NCBI RefSeq assembly: GCF_030433855.1
Contig: NZ_JARUXC010000010.1
Span: forward strand, 62,001 to 126,000
Length of the DNA stretch: 64,000 bases
DNA from: Agreia sp. PsM10
GTDB taxonomy: Bacteria; Actinomycetota; Actinomycetes; Actinomycetales; Microbacteriaceae
Reading direction: 5' to 3'
Every line of letters starts with the position of its first letter. Position 1 is the first letter of the stretch. The notes beneath the pieces were generated by a model. It did not search any database, had not been told where the DNA came from, and saw only the letters and a program-made list of their open reading frames with translations. The position numbers and the translations under genes are program-made. This document shows positions 10,769-13,474 of the stretch, piece after piece.

Positions 10769-11263
10769 TCACTGCCAGCGGGGGCCCACGCCGTCGATGG
10801 TGACCGTACGCGGTTCGATCGGCTCCTCGTCGTCGCGGCCATCGGCATCCGGGTCGTCGGATGCGCCGCGCGGCCGGTCGATCGTGATCGACAGCCACGA
10901 GTCGGTCAGCTCCTCGATGAGGCCCGCGCCCCACTCGACGACCACGATCGAGCGGGCGAAGTCGATGTCGAGGTCGTCGAGCTCCACCGCGGTCGAGAGC
11001 CGATAGGCGTCGACGTGCACGAGGGCGGGCGCGCCCGGGTCGAGGCGCGGATGCGTGCGCGCCAGCACGAAGGTCGGGCTCGTCACCGCGCCCCTCACCC
11101 CGAGCGCCTGGCCGAGACCGCGGGTGAAGGTGGTCTTGCCCGCGCCCAGTTCGCCCGTGAGCAGAACCACGTCGCCGGCGGCGAGCCACGAGGCCACCTC
11201 GTGCGCGAGTTGCGCCATCTGCTCGGGCGTCTCGATGGTCGTCTGCCTGTTCACGGCGCTCAT
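10769..11263 (-). CDS. tsaE: t6A biosynthesis ATPase TsaE
   Basis: P-loop ATPase of 164 residues that drives turnover of the TsaB-TsaD complex. The Walker A motif GELGAGKTTFTRGL lies at about residues 38-51; TSPTFVL and HVDAYRL follow as in the family. The start at 11263 overlaps the stop of the upstream racemase-like gene (ATGA). The C-terminal stretch (about residues 130-164) is rich in Asp and Glu. Confidence 0.95.
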   Translation of the reverse strand: MSAVNRQTTIETPEQMAQLAHEVASWLAAGDVVLLTGELGAGKTTFTRGLGQALGVRGAVTSPTFVLARTHPRLDPGAPALVHVDAYRLSTAVELDDLDIDFARSIVVVEWGAGLIEELTDSWLSITIDRPRGASDDPDADGRDDEEPIEPRTVTIDGVGPRWQ

Positions 11264-12021
11264 CGGTTCACCTCTCGATCGATGTAGCGACGGGGTACGC
11301 GACGACCGATGCGGGCGAGGATCTCGCCGGCCGTCGACCGGGTCGCCTCGGCCCAGTCGGCCGCCGTGGGCTCGCCGTCGACGCCGGCACCGAAGGCGAC
11401 GGCGCGGTCGCCGGGAGCGACCTGCGCGTCGCCGACGTCGAGCACGACCTGATCCATGGCGATGCGCCCGACGATGGGATACTGCGTGCCTCCCACGGCC
11501 ATGCGGCCCGAGCCTGTGGCCGCCCGGGGAAGGCCGTCGGCGTAGCCGAGGGGAACGAGCGCCAGCGTCGTCTCCCGCGGCGTGCGGTAGACGAAGCCGT
11601 AGGAGACTCCGTGGCCCTCCGGCACCCTCTTGACCGAGAGCACGGGAGCGGACACGCGCATGACCGGCACGACCCCCTCGGGCGCCCCGTCGGTGAGCTC
11701 CATGCCGAACCCGAAGGCGGCGATGCCGGATCCTGCGGGAGGAACGGCGAACCTCCTCGTATGCCAGCAGCGCACGTCGATGCCGATGTGCGCTTCGGCG
11801 ATGGCGTCGGCGTCGGCCTGGTCTCGCACGCTGAGGATGTCCGCGCCCGACTCGGCCGCCGCACGCGCGAGCGGCACGAGTCCGTGGCCATAGGCATCCG
11901 CCGTCATGTCGATCACGAGGGGGCCGCCGACCGCGCGGGCCGCGAGGAGCGCCACGTTGAGTCGGAACGCGACGAGATCGACGGCCGCCTCGCGACCGAG
12001 CCCCGAGTCGGTGCCGGTCAT
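11260..12021 (-). CDS. Alanine racemase-like protein lacking the PLP lysine, with intact C-terminal domain
   Basis: Protein of 253 residues, well short of a full racemase (about 370). The N-terminal barrel is cut down: the strand that normally reads VKANAYGHG reads MTADAYGHG, so the PLP lysine is Thr40, and the middle barrel segments with DTG-x-GR, FSHxANAD and HLANSA are missing. The C-terminal beta domain is intact: catalytic tyrosine motif VSYG (Tyr141, equivalent to Tyr265 of Geobacillus Alr), VPLGYADG, and GRIAMDQ (Met189-Asp190). The Tyr354 position is Gly232. It follows the fuller alr gene with an ATGA overlap. By itself it should be inactive, but it could supply the missing half-site to its neighbour. 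Alternatives are a degenerate duplicate or a regulator. Confidence 0.88.
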   Translation of the reverse strand: MTGTDSGLGREAAVDLVAFRLNVALLAARAVGGPLVIDMTADAYGHGLVPLARAAAESGADILSVRDQADADAIAEAHIGIDVRCWHTRRFAVPPAGSGIAAFGFGMELTDGAPEGVVPVMRVSAPVLSVKRVPEGHGVSYGFVYRTPRETTLALVPLGYADGLPRAATGSGRMAVGGTQYPIVGRIAMDQVVLDVGDAQVAPGDRAVAFGAGVDGEPTAADWAEATRSTAGEILARIGRRVPRRYIDREVNR

Positions 12022-13121
12022 GAGGTGTACTCCCTGGCCACGCGCCCGCCCAGACGGGTGACGATCTCGTAGTTGATCGTGTCGGCGGCCCTGGCCCAGT
12101 CATCGACGGCGGTGAATCCCCCTTCAGGGTCGCCGAAGAGCGTCACGGTGTCTCCGCGCACGACGTCGACGCCCGGCGACACGGGTTCGACGACGAGGTG
12201 ATCGGACTCGATGCGGGTCACGAGCAGCGAGCCGGCATCGCCGGTGACATGGATGCGGCCTGCGGCCTGCGGAGGTATCCCGTCGCCGTAGCCCAGGGGC
12301 ACGATGCCCGAGTGAGCTGCAAAATCGGCGTCGGACGACGGGGCGACGGCGACCACGGTGCTGCGCAGCGTCATGGCCGGCTGCAACCCGAGCTCGGCGG
12401 ATCCTCCGTCGTCGAAGGGAGAGAGCCCGTAGGCGCCGATGCCGACGCGCACCAGGTCGAGCCGCATGGGCGGCAGGCGGAGAGTCGCGGCCGTCGACGC
12501 CAGGTGCCGCAGCTGGGGCTGAAGGCCCGCGCGCCGCGCGGCCTCGATGCCGCGATGGAGTCGCTCGAGCTGCCGGGCATCCTCCGAGTCGTCTGCGTTC
12601 GCGAGGTGACTGAAGATGCCGCGCACGCGCAGCAGTCCGGCGAGCTCGAGCCGACGAGCCTCGGCGAAAAGGTGGACCCAGTTCGGCTCGTCGGCACCGT
12701 TCCGCCCCAGCCCGGTGTCGAGCTTGAGATGAACGGAGGCCGGACCATCGCCGACAGCCTGCTGTGCCCGGGCGACCGAGTCGAGCTGGGCGAGGTCGCT
12801 CACCCCGATGTCGATGCCGGCATCGATCGCCGCCGTGAAGTTCTCGTGCGACTCGTGCAGCCACGCGAGCACGGGCGCATCGATGCGCGCGTCGCGAAGC
12901 TCGAACGCCTCGGCGAGATCGGCGACGCCGAGCCAGGCGGCGCCGCCCTCGATCGCCGCGCGGGCCACCTCGACCGCACCGTGGCCGTAGCCGTTGGCCT
13001 TGACCACGACCATGACCTGGGCTCCGTCTGCGAGCGAGACGAACCGGGAGACGTTCCGGGCGACGGCCGACAGGTCGATGATCGCCACCGACTCCGAAGC
13101 CGCGCCGTCTGCGACGGTCAC
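12018..13121 (-). CDS. alr: Alanine racemase with PLP lysine but no catalytic tyrosine motif
   Basis: Protein of 367 residues from GTG 13121 (GTGA overlap with acpS). Alr interconverts L- and D-alanine for peptidoglycan. The barrel is well preserved: PLP lysine Lys41 and Tyr45 in KANGYGHG, Lys133 and Arg140 in [10 protein letters not shown], His172 in FSHLANAD, Arg225 in RVGIGAYG, and Tyr351 near the end. HLANSA reads HLASTA. In the C-terminal domain the expected VSYG motif is absent (residues 259-272 read [14 protein letters not shown]), and the RVxMDQ motif reads RIESDH. The catalytic Tyr265 and Met312 equivalents are thus lost. It probably needs a partner; the next gene has precisely these residues. 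Confidence 0.9.
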
Positions 13122-13474
13122 GGCGTGCGCTCCGCGACGACGAAGGCGAACGCCGAGTCGCCGTCGTGGCTGAGCGAGAGGTGGATGACCCCCACACCGC
13201 GAGCGCGCGCGGTCTCTGCGACCTGTCCGCCGAGAAGGAACGACGGCTTTCCGTCCTCGTCGGTCACGACCTCCATGTCGTGCCAGCGGAATCCCGAGGA
13301 GTCTCCGAGCGCCTTGATGAGCGCCTCCTTGGCGGCGAACCGGGCGGCGAGCGACCGAGGCGACCTCCGGCGTTCGCCCTCGGCGAACAGCCGCTCGACG
13401 AGACCCGGCGTGCGGTCGATCGACCCCACGAACCGGGGCACGTCGACCAGGTCGACGCCGATGCCCACGATCAC
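13118..13474 (-). CDS. acpS: Holo-[acyl-carrier-protein] synthase
   Basis: Transfers 4'-phosphopantetheine from CoA to the serine of acyl carrier protein. 118 residues from GTG 13474, the usual length. GVDLVDV near the N-terminus carries the metal-binding Asp, and [12 protein letters not shown] holds the second acidic ligand. [13 protein letters not shown] is the conserved C-terminal strand. It starts 9 nt after glmS and overlaps the alr start, so it sits within a cell-envelope operon. Confidence 0.94.

Follow-up and report, generated by a model that had tools for sequence, protein, structure and literature searches.

How can a cell make D-alanine when neither of the two adjacent genes at its alanine racemase locus encodes a complete active site? 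Alanine racemase (Alr), a textbook example of a homodimer, is essential for the cell wall and serves as a drug target. In a 64,000-nucleotide stretch of Agreia sp. PsM10 (Microbacteriaceae; contig NZ_JARUXC010000010.1, positions 62,001 to 126,000), which we refer to as the window, two alr genes lie side by side on the minus strand: a long gene (12018–13121; A_long, P0001, 367 aa), encoding a complete barrel with the pyridoxal phosphate (PLP) lysine and a decayed C-terminal domain (C-domain), and a short gene (11260–12021; A_short, P0002, 253 aa), encoding a partial barrel and a complete C-domain. Our reading of this pair (pair A), to which we give a probability of about 0.86, is that its products would combine as subunits into a single alanine racemase, an obligate heterodimer that has just one active site. 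A preliminary description of this DNA, which had placed both open reading frames (ORFs) at the same coordinates, had arrived at the same idea.

Residues were called by alignment to S. lavendulae Alr and full-length relatives and are named, unless given in the numbers of the pair itself, after B. stearothermophilus Alr; the numbers of Lys39, Tyr265, Tyr354, Arg136 and KCX129 appear in PMC3485190. The long protein keeps the PLP lysine (Lys41, codon 12999–13001, the equivalent of Lys39), Tyr43, Lys129, Arg136, His166, Arg219 and Tyr354 (Tyr351 in the protein, codon 12069–12071), lacks Tyr265 and has Ser at Met312. The short protein has Thr at the PLP-lysine position (Thr40, codon 11902–11904), misses the middle of the barrel (113 residues, against 244 in S. 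lavendulae Alr), and keeps Tyr265 (Tyr141, codon 11599–11601), Tyr284, Met312 (Met189, codon 11455–11457) and Asp313. These calls bear out what had been described for each gene: in the long one the retention of Lys41, Tyr45, Arg140, His172, Arg225 and Tyr351, all invariant in the five Agreia long proteins compared, together with the loss of the VSYG tyrosine and the replacement of the Met of the RIAMDQ motif by Ser; in the short one Thr40, the shortened barrel and the retention of Tyr141 and Met189-Asp190. The preliminary description had missed that the short chain has also lost the Tyr354 equivalent, which is Gly232 (codon 11326–11328; STAGEIL in place of TIxYEIVT), a loss that the heterodimer idea predicts because it starts from Lys39 and Tyr354 belonging to the same subunit.

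Domain profiles divide in the same way. The long protein matches the whole of PF01168 (1–220) and only positions 33–127 of PF00842, and the short protein matches the whole of PF00842 (1–127; 129.9 bits, cut-off 25) and just positions 1–74 of the 220 in PF01168 (30.8 bits, cut-off 24.1). The NCBI alanine racemase model TIGR00492 (cut-off 168) scores the short protein at 119.4 bits and the long at 224.4, so that the long chain passes alone and annotation hides the split. The stop codon of the long gene and the start codon of the short gene share four nucleotides (ATGA, 12018–12021), as had been noted, and the two genes overlap in the same way in 7/7 Agreia A pairs, the window included. In all seven the PLP lysine and the catalytic tyrosine never occur in one chain, Lys39 being found just in the long and Tyr265 just in the short, and the two-chain unit holds both.

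In Alr the lysine and Tyr265 of an active site belong to different subunits, and alanine specificity is set by the small space left between Tyr265' and Tyr354 (PMC3485190). Here the long chain would bring the barrel with Lys41, Arg140, His172, Arg225 and Tyr351, and the short chain would bring Tyr141, Met189 and Asp190. Because Lys39 and Tyr265 come from different subunits, and because the Tyr265'-Tyr354 gap sets specificity, a long:short heterodimer would hold one complete alanine site, with Tyr354, and one dead site; the split pair thus predicts an Alr dimer in which a single site works. From the residue pattern we infer that the two chains pair physically, that the pair is active and that each chain alone is inactive, and the gene overlap would favour their joint production through putative translational coupling.

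Pair A is present in seven of the eight genomes of the genus (E up to 1e-60), so that six further genomes carry the pair whose occurrence in relatives the preliminary description had proposed to look for, and in 7/398 genomes and 1/78 genera of the family (E up to 1e-52). In the remaining genome of the genus (G005) PF00842 matches only a tandem of two intact alr copies. The split itself had been called rare, a word that needs qualifying: split pairs of a second kind (B) and fusions of two kinds (F and H) occur in many genera of the family. The fetched loci comprised 55 long and 56 short forms, that is 7 A pairs, 8 F fusions, 3 H fusions, 37 B longs and 38 B shorts; scripts applied fixed rules to choose start codons and to cut the fusions, and one B short (B_short_G008) was added to the residue table through its ORF. 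Every long carries Lys39, Arg136, His166 and Arg219 (55/55 each) and none has Tyr265 or Met312 (0/55 each); every short carries Tyr265 and Met312 (56/56 each) and none has Lys39 or Tyr354 (0/56 each). The 26 full-length copies found with the PF00842 profile have Lys39, His166, Arg219, Tyr265 and Met312 in 26/26 and Arg136 in 25/26; the one without Arg136 in the alignment (C_G021b) was omitted from the domain trees and domain identities, and the alr of G016 (L049), which runs over two frames in a genome 86% complete, is not in the tables. Neither gene occurs alone: all 17 PF00842 matches classed as long-type, those that start at profile position 28 or later, adjoin a short-type match, and the odd B short behind the count of 37 to 38 (G019) lies close to where its contig of 3,224 bases ends. 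Counts of long forms were not taken from the 149-genome survey, which holds best matches only, and the family-wide search gives no count for pair B as full-length copies match it as well.

Sequence identity follows the same division. The barrel of A_long is on average 46–50% identical to full-length Alr and its C-domain 38%, the N-terminal part of A_short 35% and its C-domain 50%, with the full-length copies mutually 46–54% identical; the domain identities of the other kinds of long and short lean in the same direction. A second set of 80 named loci, which were picked out by peptide patterns covering the motifs of Tyr265 and Met312 and therefore form a weak control, shows the same pattern in 75 full-length copies, 14 longs and 15 shorts: Tyr265 and Met312 are present in 75/75 full-length copies and 15/15 shorts, partly by selection, and the 14 longs were found as neighbours and so are free of motif selection. 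L143, counted among these shorts, is a full copy with a frameshift. For pair A a sequencing error or frameshift artefact was rejected, since the residue states are identical in 7/7 Agreia pairs.

These counts also bear on the possibility that the long protein works by itself as a homodimeric racemase in which another acid/base takes the role of Tyr265, and that the short protein is its activator, chaperone or regulator. The long protein does exceed the alr equivalog cut-off and keeps the PLP-site residues of its own side, and known activators include catalytically dead paralogues (PMC5201418, PMC3663545). However, Tyr265 and Met312 are missing in 55/55 longs and kept in 56/56 shorts; a regulator needs no catalytic residues, and a partner of one would not lose exactly those. 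We consider this explanation improbable.

Natural fusions join the two halves that the heterodimer would bring together. In kind F (8 genomes of genera g36 and g83) a single ORF holds a long-type half followed by a short-type half, the former with Lys39 and Tyr354, the latter with Ser or Thr for the lysine and with Tyr265 and Met312 kept. In kind H (3 genomes of g61) a single ORF runs from a long half through a C-domain, in which Tyr265 and Met312 are present, to TsaE. In total the fusions were found in 11 genomes of three genera other than Agreia, and the fusion ORF accounts for all PF00842 matches of the genome in G042, G112, G163, G067, G128, G183 and G142. In the two fusions scanned, one F and one H, the second C-domain exceeds the PF00842 cut-off, which again argues against a long chain that acts alone. 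Fused halves are what one expects of subunits obliged to meet. In the g61 fusions (L094, L095, L096) the PF00842 match of the second C-domain stops at about position 94. In genome G335 (L092, L093, L127) the halves of a B-type pair are fused with the short one first, and this fusion is accompanied by an intact alr and by a long-short fusion at the alr locus.

Our proposal is that pair A makes the D-alanine of the cell. A profile search of the genome gave four PF00842 matches, namely pair A and a second split pair, pair B, on another contig; an intact alr elsewhere, which the preliminary description had named as grounds for refuting its proposal, was not found by profile search. Besides these, PF01168 matches three proteins: YggS, LysA and one with a weak likeness to aldolase. 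Redundancy with another alr was rejected on these searches, which found no full-length copy in the Agreia genome. D-alanine by way of D-amino-acid transaminase (Dat) was rejected as well, the Dat model exceeding its cut-off in 0/14 genomes searched, the Agreia genome included, and in 1/14 control genomes.

The heterodimer of pair A might yet racemise a substrate other than alanine, with D-alanine coming from a side activity of pair B or from another PLP enzyme. A second pair is indeed present in the same genome, the Dat model has matches below its cut-off in 13/14 genomes, and alanine as the substrate of pair A is itself deduced, from Tyr354, from the locus and from the lack of another candidate. 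Position 354 speaks otherwise: it is Tyr in 7/7 A longs and 11/11 fusions (18/18 longs of kinds A, F and H) and Asp or Glu in 37/37 B longs, one of which (B_long_G022), with a short C-terminal end, reads Ile or Asp depending on the alignment, and in 4/4 second tandem copies. Alanine specificity is said to depend on the gap between Tyr265 and Tyr354 (PMC3485190), and pair A lies at the acpS-tsaE alr locus, so we give this alternative little credence.

Both genes are under purifying selection, as the preliminary description had asked of a functional pair. With a simple Nei-Gojobori script, the ratio of non-synonymous to synonymous substitution rates (dN/dS) over 21 genome pairs from 7 Agreia genomes has medians of 0.179 for A_long and 0.143 for A_short (maxima 0.335 and 0.331), and of 0.194 and 0.221 for the long and short genes of pair B, 0.335 being the maximum of all four genes. 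That both window genes are decaying remnants, with D-alanine obtained otherwise, would fit the loss of some catalytic residues from each copy. Against it, besides this selection, the ORFs are open in 7/7 genomes with the same overlap, and the kept and lost residues are identical among genomes. Decay of pair A was rejected on the selection, and we regard it as very improbable.

Several points weigh against the heterodimer of pair A. Its binding and activity are read from residues; the 55 and 56 rows share descent, so the counts do not represent independent events; and the shorts were found through PF00842 or tblastn, which may slightly favour detection of Tyr265 and Met312. The long chain keeps 115 C-domain residues and the short chain 113 barrel residues, and the chains may have roles beyond completing the site. 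To these is added the full-length tree, which joins A_short with B_short (97/94) and not with tandem copy 2, a grouping that we tentatively ascribe to shared barrel loss. Structure models were of uneven quality. The AlphaFold2 model of the short chain (pLDDT, predicted local distance difference test, 82.3; pTM, predicted template modelling score, 0.82) has four barrel strands with helices and a C-domain, and matches 5fag_A over 246 aligned residues (Z 24.4, root-mean-square deviation (rmsd) 2.5). The model of a natural fusion, a further point on this side, is moderate (pLDDT 72.9, pTM 0.55); its residues 1–361 have the Alr fold (Z 37.2, rmsd 2.5, 345 residues aligned to 1vfh) in a comparison that barely covered the second C-domain.

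The flanks and the trees suggest how such a pair may have arisen. On the minus strand the order is acpS (13118–13474; NF000832 over cut-off), long alr, short alr and tsaE (10769–11263; TIGR00150 over cut-off), with a 4-nt overlap at every junction: the acpS stop and long start share GTGA, and the short stop and tsaE start likewise share 4 nt. Both acpS and tsaE are present in the fetched stretches of 6/6 A pairs plus the window, 5/5 tandem copies (those of G104 were used for synteny only) and all 11 fusions (8/8 F, 3/3 H); each is present in 12/19 stretches with a single full-length copy, and in 0/38 B loci. A_long groups with tandem copy 1 of G005, G014 and G018 (98/93 in the full-length tree, 88 in the barrel tree), and the C-domain of A_short with tandem copy 2 of the same three (Shimodaira–Hasegawa-like approximate likelihood ratio test 98, C-domain tree); the tandem copies of G011 fall elsewhere, and the single-domain trees are partly poorly resolved (35/80 inner branches open in the C-domain tree). 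Most likely, pair A arose by tandem duplication of alr at the acpS-tsaE locus, the copies losing complementary halves. The F/H and B forms seem to have other histories. Within the same genus, the tandem of G005 (L025) lies at the acpS-tsaE locus with copies that have Tyr354 and Asp354, and this intact tandem looks like the state before the split. In G015 (L031) the B_short is still full length (389 aa), with the PLP lysine, Arg136 and His166 replaced and Tyr265 and Met312 kept, and is likely an intermediate before barrel loss. The family offers a whole series, from single alr through intact tandem copies and a full-length copy with dead barrel residues to split pairs, in both gene orders, and fusions, so that one can test directly how complementary losses give rise to an obligate heteromer.

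In fold and catalytic residues pair A resembles the homodimeric Alr of fold type III PLP enzymes (S. lavendulae 1VFH, S. coelicolor 5FAC), whose site is shared between the barrel of one subunit and the C-domain of the other, as predicted here. It differs in having two different subunits, each without the half of the site that the other would bring, with one predicted site per dimer and a short chain of 113 in place of 244 barrel residues. Lyr (lysine-preferring) and Bar (broad-specificity) have the Alr fold with Tyr354 replaced, by Thr391 and Ala393 respectively (PMC3485190), like pair B and tandem copy 2; the latter carry Asp or Glu, whereas Lyr and Bar have no acidic residue there and, unlike the split pairs, carry the two catalytic residues on a single chain. 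Trypanosomes already provide heteromers that include a dead paralogue: trypanosomatid deoxyhypusine synthase and AdoMetDC/prozyme are active as complexes of such a paralogue with a subunit that is itself impaired or autoinhibited (PMC3663545, PMC5201418). These are eukaryotic cases of other enzymes in which the dead partner is described as an activator, whereas here each chain is predicted to bring catalytic residues. LacLM beta-galactosidase is likewise a heterodimeric enzyme from two overlapping bacterial genes (PMC4358714); it is not of the Alr fold. In the portions of the open-licence PMC literature covered, no report of a split or heterodimeric alanine racemase was found.

Pair B of the Agreia genome lies outside the window (L012:6836–8640; C42:343835–345639), with the short gene before the long. 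Its residue 354 is Glu, and it immediately follows murT- and gatD-like genes, which exceed the PF08353 and PF07685 cut-offs and match the NCBIfam MurT and GatD models below theirs. The order short then long is that of the B kind, a 4-nt overlap is present in 16/25 further B loci, and murT- or gatD-like genes in 26/38 fetched B stretches. The peptidoglycan of Agreia has L-diaminobutyric acid (L-DAB) connected to D-ornithine (D-Orn; PMC5945732). Because of Asp/Glu354, the murT-gatD neighbours and this peptidoglycan, pair B may be a racemase for ornithine or another diamino acid, a reading that we place at roughly even odds and which makes it a candidate for the enzyme behind the D-diamino acids of group B peptidoglycan.

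The peptidoglycan types of relatives bear on the pair B substrate in both directions. Subtercola (DAB) has tandem copies, and in a genus-level table (PMC7033078) Compostimonas, with a single PF00842 match, has L-DAB only and Salinibacterium, with pair B, has Lys and Orn, all in favour of a diamino-acid substrate. Cryobacterium is listed there as B2gamma with DAB (PMC7033078). Against a diamino-acid substrate, each of the three Cryobacterium genomes searched (five fetched) has a single PF00842 match. The same holds for Agromyces salentinus, a species with peptidoglycan of the DAB type. The passages of PMC8225329 and PMC6113628 covered contained nothing relating peptidoglycan type to the pair B substrate. 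Taken together, and somewhat speculatively, Microbacteriaceae may repeatedly have made obligate heterodimers from homodimeric Alr-fold racemases by complementary decay of duplicates, sometimes fused, and Agreia may run two insulated heterodimers, A (Tyr354) for D-alanine and B (Glu354) for a D-diamino acid of group B peptidoglycan, be it D-ornithine or another.

Three further observations concern related loci. In the reduced, 0.93 Mb genome G022 (L042) a strongly diverged B-like pair, with Asn for Tyr43 and a short C-domain in the long chain, provides the only PF00842 and PF01168 matches. Microbacterium stercoris (G422) carries a B-type pair twice with identical scores (C1:687226–688628 and C5:215498–216900), either a recent duplication or an assembly duplicate. 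A contig labelled Stenotrophomonas maltophilia P13 (L153) carries an alr of actinobacterial type and is perhaps a contaminant.

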